Shown here: positions 22,587-64,000 of the stretch, one piece after another | Layout: every line of letters starts with the position of its first letter | Numbering within the stretch: position 1 is the first letter of the stretch | Origin: Rhodamnia argentea | Lineage: Eukaryota; Streptophyta; Magnoliopsida; Myrtales; Myrtaceae | Direction of reading: 5' to 3' | Assembly: GCF_020921035.1 (NCBI RefSeq) | Contig: NC_063156.1 | Coordinates: 29,374,283-29,438,282 of the forward strand | Length of the DNA stretch: 64,000 nucleotides | Notes under the pieces: generated by a model | Database searches by the model: none | What the model was told of the DNA's origin: nothing | The model's input: the letters and a program-made list of their open reading frames with translations, nothing else | Program-made: the position numbers and the translations under genes

Positions 22587-24880
22587 TCAGAGCCTGGAAG
22601 ACCCCCTAGGATGATGCACGACGATGTGATTGTAGGCTTCGAGCGTCAGGAAATCATCCAACACCGGCGCAGTGCATTGCCTTGTGAATATCTTGCCAGC
22701 CTCCTTGTACATCCCACTCCTGAACTTGTCCTTCCCAACCTCTCTCTCAATCCTGGCCAGCTCTTCCTCCACCACCCTCCCGAACAGATCCAAGCTCGCT
22801 CTCACTCCAACCCCATCTCCGTCCAGCTCCACACCGTACTTCAGCCACTGCCAGTTCTGGACTCGGCTGATCTCGGCAGTTGCAGCATCCTCCATGAGAT
22901 TGTAAAGCGGGACCGACCCCGTCCCTGTGAGCCAGGCTGCCAGGTATTGGATCCCGACCCGAGTGTTGAGCCGGAGACCTTCCATAGTCCGGACCCCTCT
23001 CGGCCTCTGAAGGAGGTCTTCATCAGTTATGTTGGCCGCGTCCTCTCTCTTGACCGATTGGATCTGGTGCGGCGCGTTGCCCATTTGATTCTTGAAGACT
23101 TCCACACACGTCGGGATTAACCCTGGGTGCGCGGCCCATGTCCCATCATGCCCGGCCCTGACTTCTCTAAGCTTGTCCTTCCGTACTAGTTCCAGCGCCA
23201 CCTCATTGGCTGCGGGATCATCTCTGATCGGGATTTGAGCCGCCTGTCAGAAAATTAGGACAACAGATTTTCGTTAGACCGATAGCGAAAGGCTCAGCTC
23301 TACTTCAGTACTAAAAAGGAATTCCATACCATGCCTCCCATGGCATGAACACCGCGGCGATGGCAAGTCCGGATGAGGAGATCGGAGTAAGACCTCATGA
23401 AGTGCTGGGTCATCCCGACCTGAAACCTGTCGGGCAGGAGACGATCGGGGTGAGCCTGGAAGGTCTTGACATAGCTGAAGATGTAGTCCCATCTTCCGCA
23501 ATTCAAACCGACCGAGTGATCCCTCAGCTCGTACAGGATCTCATCCATCTGGAACACGGCGGGTAGTGTCTCTATCAACACTGTCGCCCTTATGCTCCCT
23601 CTCTCAATTCCTGCCATCTTCTCTGCCCTCTCAAAGACGCAGTTCCACATCTTGGCTTCCCTGTGGATCCCAATGCATGAATGCCTTTAGCTAATATTCA
23701 TGGAAAACTTCCGGAGGCACTCTGGCCTCGCATAGTACAGTAATACAGTTAATAAACCTTGATAAACTAACACAAGAAGGAAATGGACCATGCACCGAGT
23801 GTTGTAATGCTAATAGCATCCTATTTCACACAAACCAGGACATTTCATTGTCCATTGAGCGATCACAGACAAACTTACTTTAAACTCGCGGACTAATAGA
23901 TCATCAAATGTGAAATCATCCCCCGGTCTGCTGTTCGTCAATCCGATCGATGTTTCCCATAGATCGATATGTAAGAACAATCCGTCATGTAAAGTACCTG
24001 GAATGCTCCATCTTAGGGAGATAGAAGAAGGGCCCGAACCCCTCACCCTGCGTTTTCCTGAAGGAAGCGTAGTTGTGGAAGAAGTAGAGGCCGAAGTCGA
24101 CGAGGCAACCGGTCGCAGGCTCGCCGTCGATGAGGATGTGGGACTCGGGCAGGTGCCAACCTCGGGGCCTGACAAAGAGCTTGGCAATCTGGTCATTGAG
24201 CTTGTAGACCCTGTTTCGGGCCTCATCGTGGAAGGTTATGGTCCCATCCACCGCATCCTTCAGGCTCACTTGCCCTCTCATCAGGTTCTCCCAGCTCGGG
24301 GACAGCGCATCTTCGAAGTCCGCCTGTTTATACGAACGAAGCATGTCATTATCGTAATCACAATAGACTCCCAGACTCGAGCTCTAGCATCAAGTAAGTT
24401 CATTATAATTCTCCTAAATGAGTTGGCAATGTCAGATGAGCGTGATGATTCGATAGTGGATTTGAAGATATAGAATTCGCTCACCATGAAAACTTTGGCG
24501 CCGGAGTTGAGCGCGTTGATGATCATCTTGCGCTCGACGGGGCCAGTGATCTCCACCCTCCGGTCGGCCACGGCCGGGGGGACCAGCGCGCACGTCCACT
24601 CGCTTTCCCTCACGTACCTGGTGGCGGGGTCGAACCCGGGCAGCGCGCCCGCGTTGTAGCGCTGCTTGGCGTCACGACGGCACTCCATGGCGTACTTGAT
24701 GCGGGCCCTAAACTCCCTCTGCAGATCGGCGACGAACTGCAAGGCGCCCCTGGTGAGGACTTTGGCGAATTGGGCGTCATAACGCCCTCTGATGTCCACT
24801 CCCTCAGGGACGTCGAAGCCGGACTCGGTGTTGGCCTTGTTGGTCGCTGGCCCCTGGTATGTGAATGACCCAAGACCCAT
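22587..24880 (-). CDS. MLS: Malate synthase, glyoxysomal
   Basis: Exons: 24880-24485, 24323-23998, 23660-23330 and 23243-22587, with GT-AG junctions. The product is 569 residues, the usual plant length. It condenses acetyl-CoA and glyoxylate to malate in the glyoxylate cycle, which supports seedlings living on stored lipid. Recognisable blocks are YDAQFAKVL-like near the N-terminus, [37 protein letters not shown], the catalytic-region [45 protein letters not shown] and [28 protein letters not shown]. The last three residues are SRL, a type-1 peroxisomal targeting signal. The start MGLGSF at 24880 is the first in-frame ATG; the longer frame opens at TTG. No disabling change is seen. The gene is divergent from the CDKG kinase gene to its right. 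Confidence 0.96.
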
Positions 24881-24963
24881 AATCTTTTTCTCGGGACTGA
24901 TGGCGCTACTTGGCAAAGTTTCGAACGTCGATGTAAGGAATACAGGTGTTAGGGGTTGTGGAA

Positions 24964-24970
24964 TTATATA
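24964..24970 (-). promoter_or_regulatory. TATA box of malate synthase
   Basis: The minus strand reads CCTATATAATTCC, with the TATATAA core at 24970-24964. It lies 84 nt upstream of the ATG, which leaves a short leader of about 50-60 nt. Position and sequence fit a strong plant TATA element, as expected for an inducible gene. Confidence 0.6.
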
Positions 24971-24999
24971 GGAACGAAGCAAAGAGGCGAGTGGATAGG

Positions 25000-41929: not shown

Positions 41930-42171
41930 ATTGAAGGACTCAATTGGGGAATCCCCAACACGACCACATCGGACAAGTATTAACAAGCACGGCTTCCTTA
42001 AAAAGCTGGCATGCAATTCGGTCGGGAACGGACATTTCGCCGGGTTTTGCTTGTCGTCGATAAGGAACAACTACTACATACATGACATATAGCAGCAAAT
42101 TGCCAAATACAGAGGAGAATTGATAATATTGGCCTGTGTTTGATTGGAAAAACACTGGGATTTATAAGATT

Positions 42172-45100
42172 TTATAGTTTGGTTGAACCAGCAGATAAAG
42201 CATGACCGATGAGCTCCCTCCTCAAGATCTTTCCTGCGGGATTCTTAGGGATGCTACTGATGAAAGCGACACGCCTTATCTTCTTGTATGGAGTGACCTG
42301 CAAATCCAGTTTCATGTAATCAGATAAAAGGGTCGAGTTGTCTATGGGTTCGGACCGGGCTGAACACCCCGCAAATTTGATATGCACTCGAATGGTACAG
42401 TCATCCGATTGAGCTATAGGTATAATAAGCAAGCTTCAGCGAGCAGAACAAAGGTATAGTAAAAAGAATCCACGCCAATCTTGTTGGATAGATGTAGTAG
42501 CATTTACCGCTAGCCGGAAAAATACATGACAAATTGGGGTTAAAGGGGAGGGAAAAAAAAAAAACATTAGCAGCAAGGAATAGTACTAGAGTTGGAGAAG
42601 AGGCTAAGAACACCAGGTGCCTGGCGACTCAGTGATTGGGTAATCAAATAGTCCCTAATGAACTCAAGAAAAATAGAGTCTTAGTTGTTCTCACTGCCAA
42701 TGAATAGATGCCTCAACGTTTGCATTTAACATCTTCAAGACATCAACTCCTCTACTTCCCCGGGAGAATCTAAAAGCTGAAGAAGCGTCTTCCAAGACAG
42801 ATGAATCCAGGAGGAACATACCTGTTCAGCAATGAAATCCATGATTTCAGATTCTGCAACATATGCACCAGGCTTCCTCACCACAAAAGCCATGGGAACC
42901 TGCCCTGCCTCTTCATCAGGATACCTGATTCCAAGCAATACACTTGGATTAGTCTCGTTGGTTGTATACGCAGTGACTTAACCGAAAAGAAAGCACATTT
43001 ATGGATCTCACGACACACCAAAGTTTGACAAGCACATTTTAAGCAGATAGAGAATTGCTTCAAAAGTAAATGCGGATCCCAATAGGACATCTTCCAGGAA
43101 TCATCATTTTGCACAATGGCAGGATTACTATCCACCTTTTAAACTTTGAAATGTCCTCCAAGTAATCTAAAGATCACTGAATGCTGAACAAAAATAAGAT
43201 AGACAAACTTTGGCTCATGCAAACTCGATGCATCTATGGAGGTCATAACACAATCACTGGAGCGTACGGTATCACCGCGGCTTCCGCAATTTGAGGATGC
43301 GATGTAAGTAAATGCTCCAATTCAGCAGGTGGGACCCGTAGGATGGGATGTGAATGAGACGACAAAATCTGATTACGTAAATATTAGAAACATCAGATTT
43401 CATCAGCATAAGATTCTTTATCACAGCAGCTACCCGATACGCCTTGTATTTTATCAATTCCTTTAGCCTATCCACAATGTAGAGGAACCCTTCCAAGTCA
43501 AAGTAACAAAGGTCGCCAGTTTTTAGCCAACCATCAGGATCCAATGTATCAGCCGTTGCCTTGTCATCTCCAACATAACCTACATGGAATCGGGAAAGAT
43601 TCGGAACAACGTCCGAGTTTCGTGAGTGACACGTGAAGCTCAAAGAGGAGTTTTCGAGCAGTGAAATGAGGAATCCTTATGTGTGAAGAAGCAGCATATT
43701 AATCGCCGATGTCTGAAGTAACCAGGATCTCTAATTTGCACGGCAATTTTTTGTAAGCAAGTCAGTATTTCAATAGAAAGACGGCCATTTCCTAACTTGA
43801 TGTGCGTGGACAAGATGTGCAACAGAACTCCAGACAGGTTTTCTTCTCAGATTCCAGGAGGAAAGCAATCCAGGATGAGAGATTGTGGTATTACTATTGA
43901 CCTTTCATGATGGCTGGGCCACGCAGCCACAATTCGCCCTTGCAGCCTGGGGGTAGAGCTTCTCCAGTAACAGGATCGACTATTTTGGCTTCCATATTCG
44001 CGGAGAGGCGACCAACCGAGCCATATTGCTTGGTCTCATCAGGCCCCATCATCCCACTTCCTGATAGGCTCTCTGTCAATGCATAACCCTGAAAAATTCG
44101 TCCGCACATGTCACGGTTGACGAAGCCATTAGTCATTTACATCTATTGGTCTTTCGCATACATCGACTCAAAAACTACGTGCAGGATCTACTTCCTCACA
44201 TTCTCCAACTCCTTCGTGTCGTCTTCCAAAATTGCAGTACAGCACTGTCATGGTAGGCGCACAGTATCTATCGGGGTAAGCTTACTAGTACGAAGTTGAG
44301 TTTTGGATTCGATTTTCTTGTGTTAAAACTTTAGCTTGTACGGCAGTTATTTCAGGTCGGTTTTCAGTTTTATGGGAGAATCAGCCATTTCTTTTCAGGA
44401 TTGTAGTTAGGAGTTTAATCATCTTTTTGGCCAAATAAAATTTATAAAATATGAAAGCTACGTCGTCCCTTTTGAAGAGAAAAAACTCTCCTTTCATTCA
44501 ATGAATATTTTTTTTCTGTACATTTACAATACTCAATCCTATCATATATATATAGGACATCTGATAACCCTAATTTGGGGATATACAATAGGAAGGATTC
44601 TATACTAGGAAGCATACTATACAATAAAAAACTTCCTAACAAATAGGCTAAAATAACTCACGACCACACCTTTAGCACTACTAAGCGTTTTACCTGCTTC
44701 AGCTCCACGTTAGGGAATTTCTGCTGGAATCGCTCGGAAACCTCCTTCCCAAGCGGCGCTCCGCCACACAAGGTGGTGCGTAGCGAGCTGAGGTGATACC
44801 TCCCGACGTGCTCCGACTTCACCAGCGCCAGCACCACCGGCGGCGACAAAAGCAACGTGTCGGCTCCATACTTATCCACGGCCCTCAGCATGGCCTCGAG
44901 CTCGAACTTCCCCATCAAAAGCGCCGTCGCCCCCATTCCAAATGCTTTCAGTATCCACACGAACCCGTACACGTGGAACAGGGGAAGCGGAAACAGCCAA
45001 ACGGGCTTCGGGTCGGGCTCGGCTTGGTGAGGCCCGGCGAGCGCCGCGATCATGTTCCCGTGGGTCATGAGTACGCCCTTGACCCGGCCTGTCGTGCCCG

Positions 45101-45731
45101 AAGAGTAAAGAATCGTCGCGGGATCGGACTGTGTGACCCGGTTGACATTGCGGGGAATAGGACCGGTTTCCTTGGAGCCGTTCCTGGTCAAAACGGACTC
45201 GAACTCGGGCAAGTCAATAAGGATGGTGCCATGCCTGAGCGTAGGCAGCTTGTGAGATGTTTGGGAGGTGGCGAAAGCGACGACTGGCTTGCTGAGCCCG
45301 ACGAGGTGGCTGATCTCGGAGGCGGAGCTTAGGGGGTTGGCGGGGGACACGACGATGCCGAGAGAGAGGAGAGTGAAGTAGATGACGGGGACGTGGAGGG
45401 AAAGAGGCGGGAGGACGAGAGCGACGTCGTTCTTGGAGAGGGAAGGGAAGCGGCTGACGAGGAAGGAAGAGAGAGCGTGGCATTGCGAGATGAAGCATGG
45501 GAAGTTGAGGCGGTTGCCGGTGGCGGCGTCAACGAGGAAGGTGAAAGAGGAGGAGGAGGAGGAGGAGGAGGAGGAGGGGGGGAGGAGGGAGAGGAGGAAG
45601 TCGGTGAGCGAAATGGGGAGGGAAGGAGGAGGGAGAGGGAGGGAGGGCCTGAGGCTGTGGAAGGTCTTGGTTTTGGCGCAGAAGCCATTGGTGGGTTCGA
45701 GTTCTCGAGTGTGATGATTACTTTCCGCCAT
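42172..45731 (-). CDS. 4CLL: 4-coumarate:CoA ligase-like acyl-CoA synthetase, copy 1
   Basis: Exons: 45731-44694, 44088-43902, 43579-43434, 43335-43268, 42924-42822 and 42297-42172. Joined this way the product is 555 residues. It is an ANL-superfamily adenylating enzyme that activates a carboxylic acid with ATP and then CoA. The N-terminus has the family's [14 protein letters not shown], then a 10-serine tract (residues 53-62). The AMP-binding motif [10 protein letters not shown] is at 210-219. [25 protein letters not shown] and [10 protein letters not shown] (catalytic Lys537) follow. Most plant members read LPKG where this one has RVKG. The last residues, TKL, resemble a weak peroxisomal signal. 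One anomaly: the intron-3 acceptor expected before 43335 reads GG instead of AG. A usable AG 33 nt upstream would add 11 in-frame codons without a stop. Functional status is therefore likely but not certain. Confidence 0.8.
44478..44668. mobile_element. About 190-bp insertion in 4CL-like copy 1 intron 1
   Basis: Copy 2 runs directly from the gtcgtc region (about 55456) to tttagcacta, while copy 1 has about 190 bp of AT-rich sequence between the same points. Its style (ataggacatctgataaccc, aatataca.ataggaagg) recalls plant Copia LTR ends, but no target duplication or LTR termini could be fixed. It lies in an intron and should not affect the protein. Confidence 0.4.
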
Positions 45732-47295
45732 CACGGAAAGACGAAGAAGAAGAAGAAGATGGCAACCAGGACGACTTGTCGCCTCGCTATTTTCACGAGA
45801 TGATATGACATACCAACAAATTGTTATTCTTAATTACTAAAGTACTTTTGACCCAAAAAAAACAAAGTACTAAACAAACATTACTGACTTTTCTTACACC
45901 TCATACGGCAGGCTGAGAAGCTGACAGGTGACGTTCATGTTCATGCGTTCTCCCTAATAACACCTGGCCTATTCTCCTGTAGTCAATATTCCGGGGGATT
46001 CTCTCTTTCTTTCTAGCCGGAGTGATCGGTTTCGTTTCGATTCGATTTTCTTCAAAAATCGAGAATCGAATCGGTAATCTCTACTCCTAATTTTTGGAAT
46101 TGATGATCGGACCAGCCACCTTAGGGATCGAAAATCGGACCGGACCGACTGTTCCAAGCACTATAGGGTGGAACTTCGTTGAGCAGCTTCGGAAGGAACG
46201 TATTGCTCGTTGTGGTGCTGATGTCAGACTGGAACTCCGAGGTGACTAAGGCAGCGATCAGTGGAGTCGCAAAGTGGAAGAAGGAAAATCTCCCTTCTTT
46301 TTTCTTTAACTTTTCTTCTGGCTTTTGCTTCATTCTCTTGGTTTTCTGAGTGTGTGAAATCGTAAATCTCCAGCTCTCAATGTGGCCCACCCTCCTTCTG
46401 CTGCCGATGACCAAAGTGATGCAGCAGTTCAGCAAAAAAATTCAATAGGTCCGGTCCGAGCAATTCGATCCGATTTTATGTCCTGGAACCGGAAACGGAC
46501 CGTCCCGCTAACGGTTCCAATTTTAAGAAACGTGAACCGAACCGCCGCTCTCTAGAATCGGGAACTTGACCACCGGTCCCAACCCGATTCAGACGGTCCG
46601 ATTTGCTTATCTCTAATCTAGATTAATTAGTCCTGCCATGGGAAGTGAAAGGAGAATGGGTAAAAATTAATAATACAGAATGAATATTCCTTACGTGGAA
46701 TTTAAAGTCATCGAGTCATAAGTAAAAGTCAAAAATTATAATTAGGGAAAAATGCCTCAAATGGGCTGTGTCCGGGAACATCGATAATGAACCTGGAGGG
46801 GCTTACGCTTGAATTTAATATTCGTGGGGCATTTTAGGCCTAGGACACCTATCCCACGTTAGAGAGATTTCGTAGTTTCTGTACCTTTTTAACACATAGC
46901 TTCTTTCTTTAATGGTTTAAAAGTTGGATTCACTCGACGCACGACACTCTGGCTAATGCAATTTTTTTAGCCAAAAGCAAGAGGGATGAAGAAGGGATTG
47001 CCTCAATCATAGACCTTCATCAAACAATCCAAAGAGGAAGGTCAGGTTTGGAGGAAATGGAGTCCAAAACGCTACTCTTCTCCACTTACTCTCTCATCCA
47101 CGTGTAGCACGACACCCTATGATTTAATCAATATGCATAGAATCGATATCATGGGGAGTTCAAGAAAAGCTCAGAGATCAATATCAACGTCATCTTCAAT
47201 TTTGGTAAATTGATTGATCGACTCACATCTTATTTTGATTTAACTGGCCTCAGCCGAAATCAATGACATCCTTCTCTAAATAATTTGCTTTACGT

Positions 47296-48845
47296 TAGAG
47301 GTGTCAATATGGGTCTTTGACCCACATTTTAACTCATTTTTATTCATTTGGGTCAAATGTGGGTTCAATAAATTTAAAAAATGGATCAAATATAGGTCTA
47401 GGCCTATAATGTTTATTCAAATACGGGTTATAACTTAACTCATTTTTAAACCATTTTCGACCCGTGACCTATAACTTCGCAAGATAACGTTTATTCACTT
47501 GTAAACCGCCGCCCACTGCCCGCACACCGTCGTTGCTCGACTCCACCGCCCACCCCCCGCCGCCACCGCCACCAGCAGGCCGTCATCGCCGGACTCCGCC
47601 GCATGCTCACCACTGTCGCCCAACCGGTCGCCCATCGCCACCCGCCGCCGCCACCACCACCCACCCACACCCCGTTGCCGCCGCCTACCCGACCAACGCG
47701 CCACCCGATGAGCCCACTTATTACCAAAAGGCCAATTGGTTCTCGTTGAAGTTTGCGCAGAGCAGCGAGCAACAATTTCATCTTCGATACGAATTAAGCA
47801 AAATGATCTCCTCCTTCACCCCAAAAAGCACCAAACTTGGCGGGGGCATTTCCAAGTTCGGCGCCAACCTCGCTCTATTCTCCTTCTTCGTCCACGCGCT
47901 CAAGCATGTTTCATTCGGCATTGCATCTCCCCACTTAATTGTCTTCTCCCACCCGAGACTTGTGAACCATTGTTTGTCAAGAACGAAATGGCAAATGTAG
48001 TGGCCACCGGATCGGGTCAGAGCTCGTCGCTCTGTCTTGGCAACAGATCTCTAGAGGACGGGGTGGAGAAGCTGAGGCCTTCCCGTTTCGGCTCGAAGTA
48101 CCGGCCCGCGGTGACAAGAGAAGCCCCAAGGAGGTTTCCGGGAGCGCGAGGATCATCGGATGGGCGGTTGACGGCGGAAGTGGGGTTGATTTGGTTCAAG
48201 TCTATAAGTAGTTTCATTTGTGTTGTGGAACTGGTGCTGGATTCAAGTCTATAAGGAGGGGATTGGCTTTTGATCAGTGCACTCACCGGAACGACACTTC
48301 ATCAATTGATGGGGGTGATTACGATGTGAAGACTCGGGAGGGTGCTAACCAATCACATTGTGCTGATCTTAATGAGATCAAGACCCCATATTAAGGACCT
48401 GGACGCTATCGAGATTTTCCTATGTAATCGTTTTGGGAATTTTTTTTTTTTTTTTGTCAGCACATGGAGTGAGGGCAAGGAGCAAGCGGTTGAGGCGGTG
48501 GGTGAGCGGCAACGGTGGGTGGGCCAGCAGTGGGGCGGCCAAGGTGGCGCCACGCGGGCGGGCCACAGGGCGGCGGGGGACGAGCCACGGGGGCGGCGGT
48601 GGGCGAGCCACGATGGCGGCGGTGGGTGGTCTACGAAACAGTTTGACACAAATATTTCATGATTTAATTAAATATATATGTATTTAAAATATATGGGTCG
48701 AGTCGGGTTTGGATCGGGTTTGATATGGGTCATAAAATTTGTACTACGTGAAAATGGGTCAAAACGGGTTAAATTGGTCAATATGGGTCGGATCATATTC
48801 AACCCGACCTAAACCCAGTCCCAATCCACCCATTTGACGCCTCTA
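47296..48845. mobile_element. Complete hAT-type element with captured GC-rich interior
   Basis: The element is flanked by perfect 8-bp duplications CTTTACGT (47288-47295 and 48846-48853). Its left end is TAGAGGTGTCAA and its right end, reverse-complemented, TAGAGGCGTCAA: 12-bp terminal inverted repeats with one mismatch, the classic plant hAT end. Sub-terminal gggtc/gaccc motifs abound. The paralogous site at 58029-58036 has a single CTTTACGT and no insert. No transposase is encoded. The interior (about 47500-48650) is GC-rich, with CCG/CCACC arrays on one side and GGTGGCGG arrays on the other. Between them is unique sequence with exon-like frames, possibly captured host DNA. Confidence 0.92.
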
Positions 48846-49437
48846 CTTTACGTCAATGCATTTTCATAGTACTTGCTTAGACTATGTATTACACTCTTTG
48901 TGAACGGAAGATCTCAATGTAGCTAACCTAAAAAGAATTGATGGACGAAGATTTAGAACCCCGTACTCAATACGATGAATTTTATTCAAATGGAGCACAC
49001 GAGAATGCTCGTTAACTCAAGATTGGAATCAAACCTAAACCCAATCCAACATATTTGCGCTTAATGTGAAGTTTTGTCAGCCCGATTAGTTTAATCAGTT
49101 CCCAATCAACCCCAGAAGCCAATTCAAACGCATGACAAGCCAACATATGTGATAATACAGGCACTGCTCACCGATCCACAGAATTACTACACAGAAATTT
49201 GACCCAAAAAAATAAAAAAATATACACAGAAAAGAAGATGACTATAGACTGACATCAATGTGGGACCGCGATAATCGATTTATTTGATTTCCTGTTAATA
49301 GATGTTAATTAAATAACTTGCATTATCAATAAAAAAATATCTTGATTTATCTCTCGCGCACCATAAGCATGTGCATTTATTAATCATCTCCAAGCCCACC
49401 AATTATGACAGGACCCCGATAACCCAACCAACCACTA

Positions 49438-49678
49438 GCTTCGTTTATTTCTCAAAAAATAAATAATTTATAAAATATTATTTTAAAAATAATCGATTCT
49501 ATCATTTGAATAATTAATTAATGAAAAATATTTTTATTATCAACAATAATTATGCCTAATCATTATTGTGGACAATGCAAATATCCATCATTCATTCATT
49601 TTTACAAGCGGTACAAGTAATCATTATAAGAAAAATATTTTTCAAATCAGTTATTTTCATGAAACAAACAAACGCAAC
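49438..49678. mobile_element. MITE inserted in duplication copy 1
   Basis: The ends resemble gcttcgtttatttctca and, reversed, ttgcgtttgtttgtttcat. The interior has aatgaaaaatatttttatta and tcaacaataatt. Copy 2 (about 58645-58665) passes straight from the aacccagccagccaacc sequence to aaactaaact, without the insert. It belongs to the same family as 4727-4922 and 51153-51400. Confidence 0.6.
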
Positions 49679-49789
49679 TTAAACTAAATTTACTAGGGGA
49701 AAATTTCACCATGAAACCACACGAACTACTTCCCGTCACATCTCCTCACAAACAACTATTCTTTGACTAAATGATTATCATGCACAACA

Positions 49790-50768
49790 CGTTAGCATGC
49801 AAGCTTGAACTGAATCGAATCTTACCCTAAATTGAATAAGAACTTAACTAAAAATTTAGTATGATTCAGTTCAATTCAATTTTCATTTTTTTTAAAATTT
49901 TAAATTTTACTATTGTTTCCCCCTTTTTCTTTCCTTTTATTTTTACATTTTTATATTGTTTGGGCTGAGGATGGGAGAGGCCCTCGCCCAGGGGCAGCCA
50001 ACCCTCGGCCCCACCCAAAAAAAAGAAAGAAAAAAATGGGTTATTTTGGATATTTTCTGTCCAACATACTAGATTAGTAACTGGTGAAATACCAAAAAAA
50101 ATAAATAAATAAAAAATCAGTGAATTATTGAAGCTATCGGCGGTTTTGATCAGACAAGTACCAAGGGCTTTCTGATTCTTCTCAATGAAATTTTCCATGT
50201 TGCACTAAGTTACTCACGGATGTATGCATGCAGTCCGGGAACACTTTGGGGGTGACTCTTAGATCAAAGAAGACCCGAGCAATGCCAATCTCGATTCAAA
50301 AGCAAGAATTGAACCCAGGGATTCAACCAGCATCAGCTTATCCACAGTCGAGAATGCCAACTATGCCTAATCGGATCACAAGAGTCATCGTAGATAATGT
50401 TGATACTTTACAATAGATATGTAGCATCTTCTTTATTTAATATAATTTCTTTCCCAACTATCCGTGCAAGTCAGAGTTTACCTACTGATTGAAAAGCACT
50501 CTGCTTCCACCTACTAGTCAGGCAAAAGAAAGCCCTAAAGGTAGTGATTTGACCTTGAGCCCTGCACTGGACATACCTATTCCCCTATGTTTTTTAGGGC
50601 ATCATCACTCAATTCAAAGAATATCAAATTATGGGAGGCTTCAGGATAATCAAACTGAAAAAAAAAAAAAAACAATTATTTTTCAATTACCCGAACCAAA
50701 CCAAAATGCACTAAATTTTCAATTCAGTTTAGTTCGGTTCTCGGTTCGATTCGGTTTTGACACCCCTA
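49790..50768. mobile_element. Block of about 980 bp present only in copy 1, with a hAT-like right end
   Basis: Flanking sequence matches copy 2 around 58770-58790, but copy 2 lacks this block. The right end reads ttttgacacccctag, which reversed (CTAGGGGTGTCAAAA) is a typical hAT terminus. No matching left terminus or clean target duplication is visible, so the element is probably truncated or composite. The frames at 50228-50416 and 50489-50776 are not recognised. Confidence 0.45.
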
Positions 50769-51067
50769 GATCGTAATACTTGATCTCCACTTAAACTTTT
50801 AGATGAATATATGATTTGATATTTAATTATTATATCAATATATCATTGTGCATCCAAATCCAATAAGAGGTTAAGTTTCCCTGCAAGCATCACTTGCCGA
50901 AAGTAAATAGTCAATTACAACGCGAAAATATACAAATTAGATTGCGATGCTCAAGACCTGCCAATTACGGTTTAACTTTAGATAGCTGAAAGCAAACTCC
51001 TCAGGAACTCCTGTGAAGAAATCACCACAAGACCAATGAAATGGGAAAAGAAAGACCCAGCAACAAA

Positions 51068-51107
51068 TTATAGCGACGAGGCTTCGTCTTTCTTCTGGGA
51101 CAATTAC
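51068..51107 (-). pseudogene. Remnant of the last MPC1 exon in copy 1
   Basis: The minus strand reads the SQKKDEASS end of MPC1, then Leu and a TAA stop at 51070-51068. The TAC codon of the paralog is TAA here, and about 36 nt covering the acceptor are missing compared with copy 2. Only this exon and flanking intron sequence lie inside copy 1, because the duplication breakpoint falls in the preceding intron. Confidence 0.7.
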
Positions 51108-51152
51108 CCGTTTATGCATCTCACAGTCAAAGCCACAACCGCAACTAAAGAT

Positions 51153-51400
51153 TTGGATGCGTTTGTTTCGAAGAAAATTCAAAATTTAAAAAATATTTTT
51201 TGAAAAAATGATTGGTTGTATCACTTAAAAAAATGAATAAATGAAAAATATTTTCATTACCCATGTAAATATTTAGGCATAAGATGTTATCGATAATGAA
51301 TTTTTTTTTTCTGTAGGGTAATTTTTCTAAGCGATATAATCAATCATTTTTCGAAAAATATTTTTCACATCTTAAGTTTTCCATGAAACAAACGCACCCT
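51153..51400. mobile_element. MITE inserted in duplication copy 1 next to the MPC1 remnant
   Basis: The ends ggatgcgtttgtttc and, reversed, gggtgcgtttgtttc form inverted repeats with one mismatch. The body carries aatgaaaaatattttcatta. Copy 2 at about 59277-59285 (cactaaaatcaaatg) lacks the insertion. Third member of the family also seen at 4727-4922 and 49438-49678. Confidence 0.7.
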
Positions 51401-51465
51401 AAAATCATATGATACAAATCAAACCTAATAAGTTAAACATATCCATATGTGCATAGGTGACAAGT

Positions 51466-52504: not shown

Positions 52505-52761
52505 AGTCTAATTGAAAGACTCAAGTGGGGAACCGAACTCGACCGCTTTAGATGAAGTGTTATCAAGCACGGCTTCCCTAAAGAACAGGCATAACATTCA
52601 GTCGGAACAGACATTTCGCCAGGTTTATGTTTGTCTTTGGTTAGGAACAAGCACTACATCCATTCCATGGAGTAGCAAATTGCCAAATACAGAGGAGAGT
52701 TGATAATAATAGCCAGTTTTATTGGAATAAAACTGGCACTTATTTTCCTGGTTAATGATTT

Positions 52762-55700
52762 TTAGAGTTTAGCTGAAGCAGTAGATAAAGCATGACTGAT
52801 GAGCTCCCTCCTCAAGATCTTTCCTGCGGGGTTCTTGGGGATGCTACCGATAAAAGCAACACGCCTTATCTTCTTGTATGGAGCAACCTGCAAATCCAGT
52901 TTCATGTAATCAGATAAAATAGTCGAGTTGTCTATGGGTTCGGACAGGGCTGAACACACCGCAAATTTGATATGTATTCGAATGCAACGACTCATCCGCT
53001 TGAGCTATGTTATGAGTAAGTTTCAGCAAGTGGAACAAAGGTGTATTATGAAAGACCACGGCAATCTTGTTGGATAGATCTAGCAGCATTTGGGGTTCAA
53101 GGGGAGGGAAAAAAAAATTAGCAGCAAGGAATAGAACTAGAGTTGGAGAAGAGGCTTTCTTAGCCGATAATAGAACTCGTTGGGGTACTAGACCGATCAC
53201 CCAACATGCCGTTAAGAACACCGGGTGCCCGGCGAGTCGGTGATAGGGACTAGAGAAAAATAGTCCTAGCTATTCTCACTGCCAAATTGCCAATGAATAG
53301 ATGCCCCAGCGTTTGCATCTAACATCTTCAGACATCGACTCCTCTCCTTCCCCGAGAAAATCTAAAACCCGAAGAAGCATCTTGAAAAACAGGTGAATCC
53401 CGGGAGGATCATACTGTTCAGCAATGAAATCCATGATTTCGGATTCTGTAACATATGCACCAGGCTTCCTCACTACAAAAGCCATTGGAACCCGCCCTGC
53501 CTCTTCATCGGGATACCCGATTCCAAGCAATACACTTGGATTAGTCTCATTGGTTGTTTACGCAGCCACTTGGCCGAAAAGAAAGCACATTTATGGATCT
53601 CACCACACAACAAAGTTTGACAAGTACATTTTAAGCAGATAAAGATTTGCCTCAAAAATTAATGAGGCTCACAATAGGACATCTTCTGGCAATCATCATT
53701 TTGCACAATGGTAGGATTACTCTTGACCTTTTAAAGATTTGACTCACCAATACTATGAATGTCCTCCAAGTAATCTAAAGATCACTGAATGCTGAACAAA
53801 AATAAGATAGACAAACTTTGGCTCATGCAAACTCAATGCATCTATGGAGGTCATAACACAATCACTGGAGCGTACGGTATCACCGCGGCTTCCGCAATTT
53901 GAGGATGCGATGTAAGTAAATGCTCCAATTCAGCAGGTGGGACCCGTAGGTTGGGATGAGAATGAAACGACAAAATCTGATTACGTAAATATTAGAAACA
54001 TCATATTTCATCAGCATAAGATTCCTTATGACAGCAGCTACCCGATACGCCTTGTATTTTATCAATTCCTTTAGCCTATCCACAATGTAGAGGAACCCTT
54101 CTGAGTCAAAGTAACAAAGGTCGCCAGTTTTTAGCCAACCATCGGGATTCAATGTCTCGGCCGTTGCCTTGTCATCTCCAACATAACCTACATGGAATCG
54201 GGAAAGATTCAGAACAATGTCCGAGTTTCGCGAGTGACATGTGAAGCTCAAAGAGAAGTTTTCAAGCGGTGAGGAATCCTTATGCGAAAGCAAGCATAAT
54301 AATTGTCGATGTCCGAAGAAACCAGGATATCCAATTTTGCATGGCACTTCTTCTTTTTAAGCAAGTCAGTATTTAAATATAAAGGCGGGCATGCGCTCGA
54401 ACAAGATGTGCAACAGAACTCCAGACGGGTTTTCTTCCTAGATTCGAGGATGAGAGATTGTGGTATTACTATTGACCTTTCATGATGGCTGGGCCACGCA
54501 GCCACAATTCGCCCTTGCAGCCGGGGGGTAGAGATTCTCCAGTAAGAGGATCGACTATTTTGGCTTCCATATTCGCAGAGAGGCGACCAACCGAGCCATG
54601 TTGCTTGGTCTCATCATGCCTCATCATCCCACTTCCCGATAGGCTCTCTGTCAATGCATAACCCTGAAAAATTCGTTTGCACATGTCACAGTGGACAAAG
54701 CCATTATTCATTTACATCTATTGATCTTTCGCAAACATCAACTCAAAAACTACGTGCAGCATCTACTTCCTCACATTCTCCAACTCTTTCGTGTCGTCTT
54801 CCAAAATTGCAGTACAGCACTGTCATGGTGGACGCACAGTATCTATCGGGGTAAGCTTACTAGGACGAAGTTGAGTTTCCGAGTGTAATTCTGTGCACGT
54901 AATTCACCTTTTGATTGAAAACTTGATTTATTACATCTGACGCAACAGTGTGTCGTAACTTCCAGACCCCATCGTCCGGCAACTTCAAATTGAGCTCATA
55001 TAATGCAATCAGGTGTCCATAAGCAGACACAGTGCTCATCACTCCTTAGCTCATCCTAGGACAAAACTGGCTGCCGATGGAAGCAACAGCGTTGTGTCGT
55101 AAAATTGTCCTACTTAAACGAATAAAGAATCATGCCCGAGCATTTTGGCAGTTAAGTAATTCGTCCAGTTATTGGTCGCACATTGCACGAGTTTTGGAAT
55201 AGTAAGTTAAGCTTTCGACTGGATTGAAACGGATTGACATATGCAAAACTAACCGCTGTCACCTTGACTTAGCATGAAGCAAAGGAAAACAAAAGGATCG
55301 TCTGTATGGATTAACAATGATATCCAAAGCCGGCAGTTATTTCAGGTCGGTTTTCAGTTTTATGGGAGAATCGGCCATTTCTTTTCAGGATTATAATTAA
55401 GGGGCTAATTATCTTTTTGGCCAAGTAAATCAAACAAATATGAAAGTTATATGTCGTCTCTTTAGCACTACTAGCGTTTTACCTGCTTCAGCTCCACGGT
55501 AGGGAATTTCTGCTGGAATCGCTCGGAAACCTCCTTCCCAAGCGGTGCTCCGCCACACACGACGGTGCGGAGCGAGCTGAGGTCATACCTCCCGACGAGC
55601 TCCGACTTCACCAGCGCCAGTACCACCGGTGGCGACACCGGCAACGAGTCGGCTCCATACTTCTCCACGGCCCTCAGCATGGCCTCGAGCTCGAACTTCC

Positions 55701-56515
55701 CCATCAAAACCACCGTCGCCCCCATTCCAAATGCCCTCAATATCCACACGAACCCGTACACGTGGAACAGGGGAAGCGGAAACAGCGAAACGGGCTTCAG
55801 GCCGGACTCGGCGAGGCGAGGCCCGGCGAGCGCCGCGATCATGCTCCCGTGGGTCATGAGTACGCCCTTGACCCGGCCTGTCGTGCCCGAAGAGTAAAGA
55901 ATCGTCGCGGGATCGGACTGTGTGACCCGGTTGACATTGCGGAGCATGGGACCGGTTTCCTTGGAGCCGTTCCTGGTCAAAACGGACTCGAACTCGGGCA
56001 AGTCAATAAGGATGGTGCCATGCCTGAGCGTAGGCAGCTTGTGAGATGTTTGGGAGGTGGCGAAAGCGACGACTGGCTTGCTGAGCCCGACGAGGTGGCG
56101 GATCTCGGAGGCGGAGCTCAGGGGGTTGGCGGGGGACACGACGATGCCGAGAGAGAGGAGAGTGAAGTAGATGACGGGGACGTGGAGGGAAAGAGGCGGG
56201 AGGACGAGAGCGACGTCGTTCTTGGAGAGGGAAGGGAAGCGGCTGACGAGGAAGGAAGAGAGAGCGTGGCATTGCGAGATGAAGCACGTGTAGGTGAGGC
56301 GGTTGCCGGTGGCGGCGTCAACGAGGAAGGTGGAAGAGGAGGAGGAGGAGGAGGAGGAGGGGGGGGAGGAGGGAGAGGAGGAAGTCGGTGAGCGAAATGG
56401 GGAGGGAAGGAGGAGGGAGAGGGAGGGAGGGCCTGAGGCTGTGGAAGGTCTTGGTTTTGGCGCAGAAGCCATTGGTGGGTTCGAGTTCTCGAGTGTGATG
56501 ATTACTTTCAGCCAT
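52762..56515 (-). pseudogene. 4CLL pseudogene: 4-coumarate:CoA ligase-like copy 2, disrupted
   Basis: The exon series parallels copy 1: main exon-1 frame 56472-55483, then 54663-54477, 54187-54042, 53943-53876, 53516-53414 and 52887-52762. Disruptions: (1) the serine tract has 8 GAG units plus a 7-G run instead of 10 plus 6, so the frame of the conserved MAESNHH...[14 protein letters not shown] start (ATG 56515) ends in a leucine run and a stop. The rest of exon 1 is in the frame of an internal ATG at 56472, whose first 30-odd residues are unrelated. (2) The intron-3 acceptor is GG, as in copy 1. (3) The intron-4 acceptor before 53516 is GG where copy 1 has AG. (4) The intron-5 donor has lost one G (CAG|TATG against CAG|GTATG). 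The C-terminus would be SAKL. Core motifs such as [10 protein letters not shown] and [10 protein letters not shown] remain, so decay is recent. Confidence 0.85.
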
Positions 56516-56849
56516 CACAAAAAAGAAGAAGAAGAAGAAGATGGCGACGACAACGAGTAATCGCCATTTTCCTTTCCGCCCAAACTTAAAAAGCACGAGA
56601 TGATCTGACATATGAACAAATTGCCATTCTTAATTACGAAATTACTGAAAAAACAGTTACACTTTTCTTACACTGTTTATAGTCAGTCAGAGAAGCCGAC
56701 AGGTGATGTTCATGCGCTGTCCCTAATGACACTTGGCACTACAAGGCATGGCAAGCCTTCGCACCGTGACGTGTGCCTACTCTCTTCTAGACAGTCCGGG
56801 CGGTCCCAGTCGGGACTGTCCGATTTGCTCCCCTCCAGTCTAGATTAAT

Positions 56850-59161
56850 TAATCCTGTCATGGGAAGAGAAAGGAAATTGGGTAGAAATTTGTAATTCAG
56901 AAAAAAATATTCCTTACTTGGAGTTGAAAGTCATCAAGTCATAAGTAAAAGTCAAAAATCATAATAAGGGGAAAATGCCTCAAATGGTCTAAAAGTTGAA
57001 TCCACGTGAAGCACGACATGAAGGTTAAGGCAATTTTTTTAAGCCAAAAACAAGAGGGATGAAGAAGGCGCCGCCACAATAATAGACGTTCATCAAACAA
57101 TCCAAGGAGGACGCTTAGGTTCGGAGGAAATGGAGTACAAAACTTCACTCTCCTCCACATACTCTCGTCCACGTGTAGCACAACATCCTATGATTTGTTC
57201 AAGAGCTCCTTTAATAGCACTCCAATATGCCTAGGATAAAAAAATAGGAGTAATTAATTGTGACACGTTCATTAAAAAAAAAATCCTTTTGTAGCGAATC
57301 ATTTATTAGGAAAAATTGAGAAGTTTAATACAAAGGCGGAGAAAGAAATATTTCAATTCAATAACAATTTGAATCAAAATGATTCTACGTTCTATTAAAA
57401 GTAGAAGGCGCTTTAGTGGGATCCTCGCGGCTATGAAAAAAGAAAAAAGAAAAAAAGAAAGAGGACTGGAATCTACACATTGATTCTTCTTTTTTTTTTC
57501 ACATCTTAGGATGGTACCTTATATTTCTACCAAGCGTAAATGTATTTTTGCTTATTTCGATATTCCTCGATACAGAAAAAGCGACTTTCTACACCAAAAA
57601 TATTCTCTTAAATGAAGGTATTTTTGATTATTTCCATGATCCTCATTGAATTTGATTTTTCCACCATCATTATGGGAATGTACATGCAGTAGAAAAATTA
57701 TGTCATCAAATCATCTGGATTTATTTAGCAATAATGGAATTTGATTTTCTTCCCTATGAGTTCGAGTCTCAATAAGAATTGGAGTCCGAAACAATTGATT
57801 TTTTGTTTTTTGAGAATGGATGCGGTTATTACTTCATGATCCGACATGTACAGAATGAAAACCTCACTCTCGATTCTACGAGAGCTCGAGATCAATAACA
57901 TAAAAATAATAACCCGAGCCGAATTGAATATTAGCTCCAATTTGATAAATTAATTGATTGATTCACATTTTATTTTTATTTAACTTACCTCAACCGAAAC
58001 CAACCGACATCCTTTTCTAAATAATTTGCTTTACGTCAACGCACTTTTACAATTCGGGCATCGCCGACGTGTCTAGAGCGTTGACCACATGTCAATCGTA
58101 TGTCGAAAAGTGTCGAACATAACACGAAGGCTCCCGAAGAGTATCGGTGCTTCCTAGTCTGTTAATGAAAGATCTCAATGTAGCTAAGTTAACAGGGATT
58201 GATGGGCGAACACGAGAATGTTCTTTAACTTCACATTGGAATTAGACCTAAACCCAATCGAACAGATTTGCTCTTAACATGAAGTTTTGTCAGCCCAATT
58301 CGTTTAATTAGTTCCAGATCACCTCGAGAAGCCAATTCAAACGCATTACCAACCCTAAATCTGTGAAAATACAATCACTGCTTACCGATCCACACGGTTA
58401 CTTGAATCCCGATGCAAGAGCACCGGCCACATACATGCCACAATGAAACAGAGCTTGAACTAAACATAGAAAACAAGATGACAAGACCGATGTTCAATGT
58501 GGGATCACAAGGAATCGATTCATTTGGTTTCTTGTTCATACATATTGATTAAATAATTTGATTCGCCTCTCGCGAAACATAAGCATGCATTATGCAATCA
58601 TCTCCATTCCCCAAAGCCTACCAATTATTACAGGTTACCCAATAACCCAGCCAGCCAACCAAACTAAACTTGCTAGAGGAAAGTTTCACCATGAAACCAC
58701 ATCAATTGCTTCCTATCACATCTCATAAACATAAGCAAGTAATCTTTGACTAATTGATCATCATGCACGACAGTTTCAGAGATCCTAATACCTGATCTCC
58801 ACTTAAATTGCAGCAGACAGCGTAGACCTATGTGACGATAACTATAATCATACCTCCTCCTAAACCATGCCGACAAAAACCATGCTTGGTGCGCAACCAT
58901 ATTTCAATTTTTAAGGGCAATGCAACAGTTCAAGGCGTATATTATTGTGCATCCAAATCCAATAGGAGGCTAAGTTTCCATGCAAGAATCCTTGCTGAAA
59001 GTAAATAGTCAATGACAAAGTGAAAACATACAAATCAAGTCGCGATCACTCAAGACATGCCAATTACGGTTTAGATAGCATGAAAGCAAATTTCTCAGGA
59101 ACTCCTGTGAAGAAATCGCCACAAGACCAATGAAATGGGGAAAGAAAGATCCAGCAACATA
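56850..59161. other. Duplicated non-coding flank between 4CL-like copy 2 and the MPC1 pseudogene
   Basis: The stretch matches 46620-51060 of copy 1 in several long blocks interrupted by the copy-1 insertions. No gene is recognised. 57290-57800 has no clear counterpart in copy 1 and contains poly-A/GAAAA-rich sequence. Confidence 0.55.
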
Positions 59162-59882
59162 TTGTTGCGACGAGGCTTCGTCTTTCTTCTGGGACAAGTA
59201 CCTATAACAAAGAAAAGAGCAAGTCACACAATGTTTACCTATTTATGCATCTCCCAGTCAAAGCCACAACCGCCACTAAAATCAAATGTTACAAATCAAA
59301 ACTACTAAGCTAAACAGATCTACATGTGCATACTTGAGGTGACATATAGAGAGTGTATTAAACCAGTTTGCAATTGGAACTTGCCTCTGAGTCCTTGCCC
59401 AACGGGATAGTTGATAGAGCTGGACAGATTCATTTGAGGCATGGCATGCCAGAAGTAGGTAGTTCCGCGATTGCACCATCCATGCAAACCTCATAAACAG
59501 TGCGGAATATATTCATATAGCTGTAATCAAGACACAAAGATGAACACAGAATCTAGCTGGACAGGATAAGAAGATACTAACATTGATTGCTTTTTTAGGA
59601 ACAGAAATTGCTAACCTGCTGTCATGTTGCCCGATATCATCTCTGGTGGTTTCTGCATGTCAACCAATCCCTATTGGAAGCAACAAACAAGGTAAACATT
59701 AGTGAAAAAGCAGGAAGTCCAGGCTTTAAGATGTTTTATTGTGACTTTGTGATAACATGTGGAAGTAAACATTATGGAACAGAAGCATACAGAAGCCACA
59801 AATCCCCAGTTGCCACTGGTCCCAGAAATGAGTAGTTTTGGGGCCAACAGGACTGTTCAAGAAAGCTCGGAAAGAAGCCATT
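59162..59882 (-). pseudogene. MPC1 pseudogene: Mitochondrial pyruvate carrier 1 pseudogene, introns retained
   Basis: Exon-like blocks: 59882-59791 (FLNSPVGPKTTHFW), 59670-59616 (LVDMQKPPEMISGNMTA), 59520-59385 ([31 protein letters not shown]) and 59201-59162 (YLSQKKDEASSQ). This is the MPC1 fold, the subunit that with MPC2 imports pyruvate across the inner mitochondrial membrane. Damage: two one-base deletions after THFW, compared with the family's GPVANWGF; an in-frame TGA at 59515-59513, where the family has Cys; and loss of the stop, CAA at 59164-59162 where copy 1 has TAA. The third intron uses a GC donor in an ideal context (AGAG|GCAAGT). Retained introns show that it arose by DNA duplication, not retroposition. 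A functional MPC1 must exist elsewhere. Confidence 0.82.
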
Positions 59883-61940
59883 ATAGCAAGTAATCCCTGC
59901 AGAAAGCTCACGCCGGACGTATCAATGCCTCCCAATAATATGTAGAAGTAAATCTCATGCGAATTTGGAGAATGGTCAACCACAAAGGTTACGTTGGAAC
60001 AATTTTCTTGCAAAAAATAGTTTAAATTTGTGATTGACAGGAGATAGCCATAAATCTAGAAGAAGTCTGTTCTGCGCATATCACCATCCACTGCTCACCG
60101 GGTGCTTATAATAGGGCTTCCTTTGTTAGTAGAACTACGCCATCCTGAGTGCCCACTATTTTCAATGTAGATCAAATAAAAGCTACAAAAATGGCCACGC
60201 CGGACAGGCAGCAATAGAAAGAACAATTTCTGAACAATCCGAACTCTTACAAGAGCCTTTCCCGTGCACTGTTGAGTTGAGCTGTAACACCCAAAACTTC
60301 GTAATAACGCTATGTGCAAATGCCAAGAGGGCTACTATAAACCCACGGAGGAATACATGAAAGGATAATTTCATTGAAAAGGAGACAGAGTTCCCACTAC
60401 ATAGATGATATATCAATCAGCCTATAAAGCAAAGTCCTATTTTTCTCATAGCATGCATATATAAAAGGTATAGAGCAGGCCATGTCAAAAACAAACCCAA
60501 GGCCCGTTTACAAGTGTCAAACGGAAAAGCCTGGGAAGCACGCAATCGGCCGAAACTTAACTTCGAGACATTTACAGGACATGAACATTGGAGGTTCATT
60601 GTTGGCCACGATCGAACTAGTGATATTTGTACAACAAAACACGAAAAATTGGCCCACGCAGACCACAAATCAATTCTATACATATATAGGCAAGGGACAC
60701 CCTAAGTATTTGTTGCTCACTCAAACTAAATCCACTTTGACTTCTAGCGCCTAAGAATTTCCCAGTTAACTCTCCAGAAGTGACGAAGACACCATCTCAG
60801 CCAAATCTGAAAATGCTAAATATAAGGTGAGCAACACCTCCACAATCGATGAAATTTCAAGGTTTGAAAGAGATCACTTGATATAACTATAAGCGGTCAC
60901 CTTCACAATCACACACAAGGTACACCTGTATCAAACATAGAGATTGAAACGAGTTTCACATGAATGCTACAAACAACACATTAATAAAATGAAGTACATA
61001 TTAGTGGGTTCCCATAGTAGAAAATTTTATGGTATGGCTAGAGACTCATCCCGAGAGCAGGTCATTACTCTCATAGCAATTGAAAACGAATCAAATCAGA
61101 TGGTTCTACTCTTCAATCTTTTTAACTTGCTCCTACGGAACCAAGGTCAAAAGGAATGAGAAAAAATCAGTTATTCACGACCACCGATGAAGGATTCCTC
61201 GAAATAGCGGCACTTATCCATCTAGCTATGACTTCTTGTATTCCAATAACACCAAGGATCGAAGTCCAGTCACATAATATATAACACAGGTTCCCATTAA
61301 CTCACATAAAAAGTCCTTTTAATGACGTTGCCCGTGAGAGTGGCAAATAAGAATGACAGTGAGGTAATAGGTAGGTAGGACCCACGTAGACCTAAAAGCA
61401 CATAATGCGATTCACATCAATGCACACAGGCATATACCATAGCAATAGTCATATTGCCACAATTCATCAAACACATGTAATGTGATATACTCGCCGATCG
61501 TTTATTACATGTATAACACATTCACTTGAGGATAGAAAAATTCACCATAGTAACATTTAACTCTAACACTCAATCACTTGAGTGCTAGGGGGATCAAATA
61601 ATTTCACACCAAGAGAGTTAACTTACACATGGTCCAAGAACTTGATTGCAAGACAACCCAGCATCTTCAACCAATAACTTCTTTCTTCCTTAATTTCATT
61701 TAGATGCTTAAATTTTAGTCTTTTTTATTTCATGGATTAAATCCAAAAATCACATGTAAACACCTCGGACCACCTTCGGACAGATGGCATATCATTTTAA
61801 TTCTTCAAATTTCTTGACTCAAAACTCATTACCTTGAATTCTAATCACCAAATTACTTCAACAACTTATATGGATAAAAGTTAAGTGCAATTCCATTCAA
61901 AATAAAGCTTCATACGTCTATTTCTCGTTCCCAAAGTTCA
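59883..61940. other. Stretch without recognised genes
   Basis: The part just right of 59882 was probably the 5' region of MPC1: a TTTCTGCAG acceptor lies just upstream of its ATG, suggesting a 5' UTR intron. Beyond that no gene, RNA gene or complete repeat is seen. The longest frames (60417-60683 and 60482-60754) overlap on opposite strands and are unrecognised. Confidence 0.5.
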
Positions 61941-63030
61941 GGGAAAATTCCAATTAAGGGCCTCAAGTAGCCTGTTTTTTTCAAATAAGAACCCAAAGTG
62001 GACTTTGTTTCAAATAAGGGTCTAAAGTGCCCTTTTTGTTTCAAAAAAGGGCCTGATCGAAGGATATTTATGTCTTTTACTCTTTTTTATAATTTTATCT
62101 TTTTTTTCTGCTTTCCTTTTCTTTTCATTTTTTCCTTTCCTTTTTTCTTTTTCCCCTCCCCTCCTCTCACCTAGCCACGGTCCACCATTGATGAAGCACT
62201 CCTCTCTTCCTCCTCCACAGTGCACCACCGCCACCGGTGCTCCGATTCCATGGAAACGCCCCCGCCGTGTCCGCGAGAATCTCCCCTCCACCATGAAAAG
62301 CGAGCTCAAAGACCTCTCCCCCACTACCCCGCCGACAAGGACGACCGCCCCCTCCTCAACCCGGTCTGGGAGGCCGAGCCGGAGAACCTAGCCGAGCTCA
62401 AGAAGCGGTTCGCTACGTACATCCGCCGCAACGCCTATGACAGCATGGGCCATGACAAGCCCACACTACTAGAGAAGCTGCTGCTCGGCGTCGTGATGGC
62501 CATGCTCGTGCTCGTGCGCGTGGTTGCGATGATGTCGATGCTGGTGGTGAACTACCTAATATGTAGGGCCCGCACGCTGCTCAAGGCGCCGAACCGAGAG
62601 GAGCAAGGGGAGCGGGAGGACGACGCACACATGGGAGGGTGGAGCGGGGCCCGCACGCTGCTCAAGGGCCCGCCCTGCCATTCCCGATGGCCCTCTAGGA
62701 TCTGTTCCTCGCTTGCCGGGATATCTTCAAAGGCCCCCGCACGGTCCCTTCCCCGGAGGAGGGTGTTGTCTCGAGCCATGCTCTTCTTTTTGGGAGGATT
62801 CCAGGTGGACGTCAATGGTGGACCGTGGCTTGGTGAGGGGAGGGGAGGGGAGGGGAAAAAGAAAAAAGGAAAGGAAAAAATGAAAAGAAAAGGAAAGCAG
62901 AAAAAAAAATTGTAAAAAAGAGTAAAAGACAGAAATACCCTTCGGCCATGCCCTTTTTTGAAATAAAAGGCACTTTAGGCCCTTATTTGAAAAAATCGAG
63001 CCACTTGAGGCCCTTAATTGGAATTTTCCC
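61941..63030. mobile_element. Pack-MULE: long-TIR element carrying a gene fragment
   Basis: Perfect 9-bp duplications CAAAGTTCA flank the element (61932-61940 and 63031-63039). The left terminus gggaaaattccaattaaggg is matched exactly in reverse at the right end. The inverted repeats run about 255 bp on the left (61941-62196) and 219 bp on the right (62812-63030), ending at the shared ggtccaccattga block. They include the purine/pyrimidine-rich tracts at 62090-62160 and 62830-62910. A 9-bp duplication with TIRs above 200 bp is diagnostic of Mutator-like elements. No transposase is present; the centre is a captured host fragment. Length 1,090 bp. Confidence 0.93.
62293..62811 (+). pseudogene. 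LPEAT1 fragment: Captured fragment of an LPEAT1-like lysophospholipid acyltransferase
   Basis: From the ATG at 62293 the frame reads MKSELKDLSP. After a frameshift near 62330 a second frame continues with DDRPLLNP, RFATYIRRNAYDSMG, LLEKLLLGVVMA, VVNYLICRARTLL, APNRE and DDAHMGGWSG, then after a rearranged stretch LSRAMLFFLGG. This order (ELKDL, DRPLL, YLICR.TL..AP, AHM.GW, LSR.LLF) follows the N-terminal region of plant LPEAT1, an ER enzyme that re-acylates lysophosphatidylethanolamine. The catalytic acyltransferase motifs (NHxxxxD, FPEG) are absent, so it cannot be an active enzyme. The phrase gggcccgcacgctgctcaagg occurs twice (about 62567 and 62647), showing internal duplication after capture. 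The assignment rests on remembered motifs. Confidence 0.68.
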
Positions 63031-63039
63031 CAAAGTTCA

Positions 63040-63602
63040 CGACCAAGTTGGTCCAAGTGCTGGCCGCTTTTTCTTTTCTTTTATGTTCCTAATTTTCCTT
63101 CATTTTAGCACATCAAGCTTAAAAAAATAACTCACCAGCGATTCTGACATCGGACCACTTAGGGAGATGACTAACTAATTTATTTCAAGTCTCAGCGAAA
63201 ATGAAGCATAAAAGCTTAGCCTTAAAGCTAGACAACCTAAACCAAAATCATACTTTCAAATATTCGACCAAAAGTATACCCGCTCAACAGCAAGATCACT
63301 AGTTTAGCTCATCGTACAAAAAACCCTTTGAAACCAAGCTTGATGAAACTAGGGTTCAAATGATCTTGCCCCATCCAAGCTTCTCCTTTTACAGCTTAAA
63401 TCCCAGTTTGCAACCATCAAATCGCAACAGTAAAACTAAAATTTATCACAAAATCTATAAGGACTCCATGGAATCTTGGGAAAATAGAGTTGGGAAGAGG
63501 ATGACTCTTGTTGAGTATTACCTCAAAGAAGATATTCTTCAATATGGTTGATCATAGATTTCATATCACAACCTTCAATTTTGTCACCAGATGTGCAAGA
63601 TT
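63040..63602. other. Gene-free sequence right of the Pack-MULE
   Basis: No gene or complete repeat is recognised in this short stretch. Confidence 0.5.
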
Positions 63603-63694
63603 CCGGCCAAAAAACTCGAAGGAAGGCTTCCCTCCCCTATTTCTCTTTCCGGCCAAAAAACTCGAAGGAAGGCTTCCCTCCCCTATTTCTCTTT
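63603..63694 (+). repeat. Perfect 46-bp tandem duplication
   Basis: The unit starting ccggccaaaaaactcgaagg at 63603-63648 is repeated without change at 63649-63694. Perfect identity implies a very recent duplication or an assembly artefact. No gene is associated with it. Confidence 0.9.
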
Positions 63695-64000
63695 CTTTGA
63701 CTTTGGTGGTCCGTAAGCCTTTGCTTTCACTAGATGGGTTGGCCGTAAAGCCCCTCCCGTAACTTCATTCCTTTATTATTTTCTCAGAAGTCAAAACTTC
63801 CCTAAACCAATAACAGTTTGGCTCGACAAAAAAAAAAAAAATTGGGATCCAAAAACATTACGATATGTCGCCAAGTTATAAACTAACTTTGGTTTAAATC
63901 CTACAAAACCACACTAAACCTCCATTATCAATAATCGCGTTTCAACCAAAAAAATAATAAATAATAATAATCGCATGAATTTCATCGATACTGAAGGCCT
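63695..64000. other. Right edge of window, no recognised gene
   Basis: Contains a poly-A run at about 63828-63841 and short AAT repeats near 63952. No coding signal is recognised. Confidence 0.5.

Follow-up and report, generated by a model that had tools for sequence, protein, structure and literature searches.

A compact element of 1,090 bp occupies positions 61941-63030 of a 64-kb stretch of DNA, hereafter the window, where it sits between perfect 9-bp repeats (CAAAGTTCA). The window also holds a malate synthase gene at 22587-24982 on the minus strand, recognized by the Pfam families MS_N, MS_TIM-barrel, and MS_C, together with a DUF7950 gene. A tandem segmental duplication at 41975-51455 and 52555-59332 carries two AMP-binding gene copies on the minus strand, which we take to be 4CL-like. 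Together with the malate synthase and DUF7950 genes, we read these as plant genes. Its matching blocks are 69-98% alike, and their spacing is ~10.6 kb, dropping to ~7.9 kb further along. Because this tandem duplication ends before the element, it offers no empty site within the window. Two further tandem repeats were observed, a GC-rich 23-bp repeat (3.1 copies, 48556-48626) between the two AMP-binding copies and a perfect 46-bp repeat (2.1 copies, 63601-63695) ~0.6 kb past the element.

Boundaries and terminal inverted repeats

The target-site duplications (TSDs) that bound the element, to which no strand is assigned, lie at 61932-61940 on the left and 63031-63039 on the right, and the two copies are identical at 9/9 positions. 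Adjoining them, the ends of the element read GGGAAAATTCC on the left and GGAATTTTCCC on the right. The element opens with GGGAAAATTCCAATTAAGGG and closes with the reverse complement of GGGAAAATTCCAATTAAGGG.

We searched the 64-kb window for inverted arms that match exactly, are separated by 150-5000 bp, and are flanked by a perfect 8-11-bp repeat. At arm lengths of 10, 14, and 20 bp, the sole locus recovered was 61941-63030. Simulations were run for the first two of these lengths, and with arms of 10 and of 14 bp none of the 15 Markov-simulated windows contained any candidate. With 8-bp arms, the window yielded 2 candidates, while one or two were present in 3/15 simulations. A bounded element with a target-site duplication and inverted ends is real at this locus, beyond what chance would produce.

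The left terminal inverted repeat (TIR) spans 61941-62191 on the plus strand (251 bp) and the right one 62812-63030 on the minus strand (219 bp), each delimited by its alignment to the other. In this alignment, 204 of the 214 aligned columns are identical, with a further 42 gap columns distributed over 8 gaps, and the outermost 28 bp show no difference between the two TIRs. The outer 22 bp, with up to 3 mismatches allowed, are present in the window only at the two element ends and were not recovered in any of 100 shuffles. Both arms contain a 31-bp subterminal tandem repeat, with ~3.4 copies at 61951-62054 in the left TIR and ~2.4 copies at 62950-63020 in the right TIR. The largest gapped region of the alignment probably corresponds to one 31-bp unit fewer on the right. 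The perfect 9-bp target duplication and the inverted repeats of more than 200 bp described in the earlier note are both borne out by these data. One minor amendment to its bounds is that the arms extend inward as far as 62191 and 62812.

The GC-rich centre and its LPEAT1-like stretch

Between the two arms lies the presumably captured centre, 620 bp at 62192-62811 on the plus strand, with a GC content of ~63% and one frame without stops throughout. The GC fraction is 0.63 in the centre (62196-62822) compared with 0.41 in the window. The observed/expected ratio of CpG is 0.85 in the centre (62192-62811), 0.27 and 0.38 in the TIRs, and 0.79 in the window. The low CpG of the TIRs suggests that the ends may be silenced by methylation. 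The open frame spans 206/206 codons of 62192-62811, and 24 of 2000 simulated centres were equally open, so that openness by itself is just mildly unusual. The sole listed open reading frame of at least 150 aa inside the element is an LPEAT-like frame of 231 aa at 62220-62915.

As a reference for the centre we used Arabidopsis LPEAT1, a plant lysophospholipid acyltransferase, in a sequence that is provisional, including the matched N-terminal part. Pfam places PF01553 at residues 185-300 of this sequence, downstream of the part matched by the centre, which identifies the reference as an acyltransferase. By BLASTP, open frame P0001 aligned to the provisional LPEAT1 with 71.6 bits and 49/140 identical positions. 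The alignment covers P0001 46-177, and its final ~27 residues fall in the filler described below. When all 2,843 six-frame peptides of the window were ranked against the provisional LPEAT1, P0001 came first with a score of 182, and the runner-up reached 45. BLASTP and the window ranking, both against the provisional reference, define the main LPEAT1-like stretch (DKDDRPLL ... AHMGGW) at 62334-62642 on the plus strand.

Two shorter segments flank this main stretch. Upstream, the LPEAT1-like N-terminus MKSELKDL, at 62293-62316 on the plus strand, lies in a frame that differs from the rest of the fragment and scored 42 against the provisional LPEAT1 N-terminus, a value equalled in 4/5000 shuffles. 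Downstream, a probable LPEAT1-like tail, RVLSRAMLFFLGGF, at 62760-62801 on the plus strand, picks up LPEAT1 ~nine residues beyond the main stretch, with a score of 35 against the provisional sequence and 12/5000 shuffles equally high in the shuffle test. Unrelated peptides of the window score 43-45 with the LPEAT1 query, compared with 42 for the MKSELKDL peptide, so that, for the short start and tail, adjacency to the main match carries as much weight as score. Since MKSELKDL lies in another frame, a frameshift would fall between 62317 and 62333.

Judged by the provisional reference, the GC-rich centre corresponds to N-terminal coding sequence of an LPEAT1-type acyltransferase gene. This agrees with the earlier reading of the centre as an LPEAT1-like N-terminal region, with P0001 ranking first of the 2,843 peptides and reaching 71.6 bits by BLASTP against the provisional sequence. 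The frameshift proposed in that reading is probable, its basis being the short match MKSELKDL.

Pfam reported no family above the cut-off in open frame P0001; two short second-frame pieces of the centre were also scanned. Searches of Pfam and the PDB gave no acyltransferase match to the centre, with nothing above cut-off or credible. Such a miss is expected because the fragment ends upstream of the acyltransferase domain, although it still gives no support to the assignment. Comparison of the centre protein with IMG/VR viral contigs returned 2 stretches that fit a pattern, neither of them confirmed as a relative.

The filler and a possible second source gene

The LPEAT1-like stretch is interrupted by a filler of ~117 bp at 62643-62759 on the plus strand, which consists of a 21-bp re-copy followed by a peptide that weakly resembles plant cysteine oxidase (PCO). 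The re-copy is exact, 62647-62667 being identical to 62566-62586, and corresponds to the internal duplication that had been noticed before. The peptide, LFLACRDIFKGPRTVPSPE, is encoded at 62702-62758 on the plus strand in the second frame of the filler. It aligns to the N-terminal region of plant cysteine oxidase 2 (PCO2; PDB 7cxz_A) with a score of 35, which 3/5000 shuffles equalled and which places it at rank 4 of the 2,843 window peptides.

This alignment, together with the placement of LFLACRDIFKGPRTVPSPE in the filler, raises the possibility that the element is a chimeric Pack-MULE that combines pieces of LPEAT1 and of a PCO gene, the PCO piece being inserted into LPEAT1. We regard this possibility as less likely than not. 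Two or more parents are described as common in MULE-derived genes, 5-10% in Oryza (PMC4858842). However, the three window peptides that outscore LFLACRDIFKGPRTVPSPE against PCO2 are unrelated. With a longer PCO2 stretch as the query, LFLACRDIFKGPRTVPSPE was absent from the six best peptides listed. PDB and Pfam searches with LFLACRDIFKGPRTVPSPE returned no PCO, and an in-frame stop is found upstream of the peptide. A literature search on plant cysteine oxidase with VPSP gave no match. On sequence similarity, a PCO-like origin of LFLACRDIFKGPRTVPSPE is a weak lead.

A more specific version of this reading, which we consider unlikely, is that the centre is a two-gene chimera recording its own capture, running from the LPEAT1 N-terminal part to the 21-bp re-copy, on to a PCO-like gene, and back to LPEAT1. 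If true, such a two-gene footprint would argue that plant Pack-MULEs capture sequence through template switching while gaps are repaired. Elements and genes with several parents are already known, so that even a chimera would be nothing new in kind (PMC4858842; PMC8903248).

Classification, coding potential, and origin of the element

By its anatomy, the element is probably a non-autonomous Mutator-like element (MULE) of the Pack-MULE kind with a captured LPEAT1-type fragment. The hallmarks of MULEs are TSDs of 8-11 bp and TIRs that commonly reach hundreds of bp (PMC6446971). Here, the TSD CAAAGTTCA has 9 bp, with 9/9 positions identical, and the TIRs are long, at 251 and 219 bp with 204/214 identical columns and 42 gap columns. 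The interior is free of transposase, as the centre has only 620 bp and no Pfam family was found in P0001.

Long TIRs, a 9-bp TSD, a gene-like fragment, the lack of a transposase, and a GC-rich centre are shared with the Pack-MULEs of rice, maize, tomato, and Arabidopsis. The present element is not different in kind from these, and the 31-bp subterminal tandem repeats in its TIRs are a family detail. Tomato Pack-MULEs are commonest at 1000-1200 bp, a size peak that matches the ~1.1 kb of the present element, and GC-rich sequence is preferred by the Pack-MULEs of rice and maize (PMC3310237). The counts in the same source do not sustain the earlier statement that Pack-MULEs are known mostly from rice: rice leads with 2853, but tomato has 220, maize 276, and Arabidopsis 46 (PMC3310237). 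Repetition inside the ends is also a trait of the tandem-TIR MULEs, exemplified by PM-ZIBP of tomato (PMC3310237). There, whole TIRs are duplicated, whereas the present element has short 31-bp subterminal repeats.

The literature searched contained no case of LPEAT capture by a Mutator-like element. For acyltransferase capture by a Pack-MULE, the one study listed concerned a benzyl alcohol acetyltransferase, another acyltransferase. CACTA elements have a TSD of 3 bp. Pack-CACTA elements carry the ends CACTACAA, whereas the ends of the present element start with GGGAAAATT and its TSD has 9 bp rather than 3 bp. The likeness to Pack-CACTA and other Pack-TYPE elements is that of a TIR element capturing gene fragments, and pieces from several loci occur there as well (PMC8903248). 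The element is an ordinary example of a well-described class, and gene-carrying elements are already well known.

With respect to function, the fragment stops before the part that would encode the acyltransferase domain and probably contains a frameshift, so no working enzyme is expected. The captured piece is most likely inert cargo. We consider it highly improbable that the centre yields a functional small protein or a hairpin RNA regulating the parent gene. The 231-aa open frame at 62220-62915 could be read in favour of a protein, but it is not the frame of the LPEAT1-like start, it continues into the right TIR, and 24/2000 simulations of the GC-rich centre were equally open. The arms have a predicted duplex energy of -316.7 kcal/mol, in keeping with a hairpin, and work on Brassica napus proposes siRNA crosstalk from gene-capturing transposable elements to their donor genes (PMC11986588). 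Against this, the stem would consist of TIR sequence, without the LPEAT-like stretch.

Silencing of the parent gene by a TIR hairpin, as proposed in the earlier note, was examined as a direct effect and rejected. The stem would form between 61941-62191 and 62812-63030 and holds TIR sequence only, while the LPEAT-like stretch at 62293-62801 would lie in the loop. As the LPEAT-like sequence is outside the inverted arms, any siRNAs that the stem gave rise to would be directed at TIRs and not at the parent directly.

The description of the element as fresh is not supported by the TIRs, which differ at 10/214 aligned bases (4.7%) and by 42 gap columns. TIR divergence is an unsure clock for MULE insertion, since the arms need not start identical. 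A modest age is suggested only by the perfect TSD and by a CpG ratio in the centre (0.85) that is gene-like.

The same divergence of the arms (10/214 aligned bases and 42 gap columns), along with a centre that is scrambled and probably frameshifted, would also be expected from an old multi-copy MULE family in which LPEAT capture was ancient and then amplified. The centre would now be element sequence and the present locus one of many, with no separate capture behind it. We lean against this history. No second copy of the element was found in the 64-kb window, a small sample, and the sole match outside the element, at 2767-2840, is T-rich and without element ends. The centre, moreover, has retained its gene-like CpG of 0.85, in contrast to the CpG-poor TIRs.

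Returning to the favoured reading, a Pack-MULE, the long TIRs and the perfect 9-bp TSD indicate that the element inserted at this site as one unit. The LPEAT1-type fragment may have been gained when a break within an ancestral element was repaired and the polymerase used the gene as its template. During this repair, at least one further template switch may have taken place, which would have left behind the 21-bp internal copy and the filler. The element would then have been moved to its present site in trans, by a MULE transposase encoded elsewhere. Gap filling is supported as the origin of most animal Pack-TIRs that are single-copy, and whether it also acts in plant Pack-MULEs is called worth exploring (PMC8277862).

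Pack-MULEs move and recombine gene pieces. The chief value of this complete and small copy is the legible order of its centre (gene, 21-bp re-copy, filler, gene), which could be set against the parent at single-base level to look for polymerase template switching.

Elsewhere in the window, a 60-bp tandem repeat is present in 3 copies at 10106-10285, and its end, 10240-10285, is matched in inverted orientation by a partner of 46 bp at 10493-10538, with 80% complementarity. This repeat and its partner are perhaps the remains of another element.
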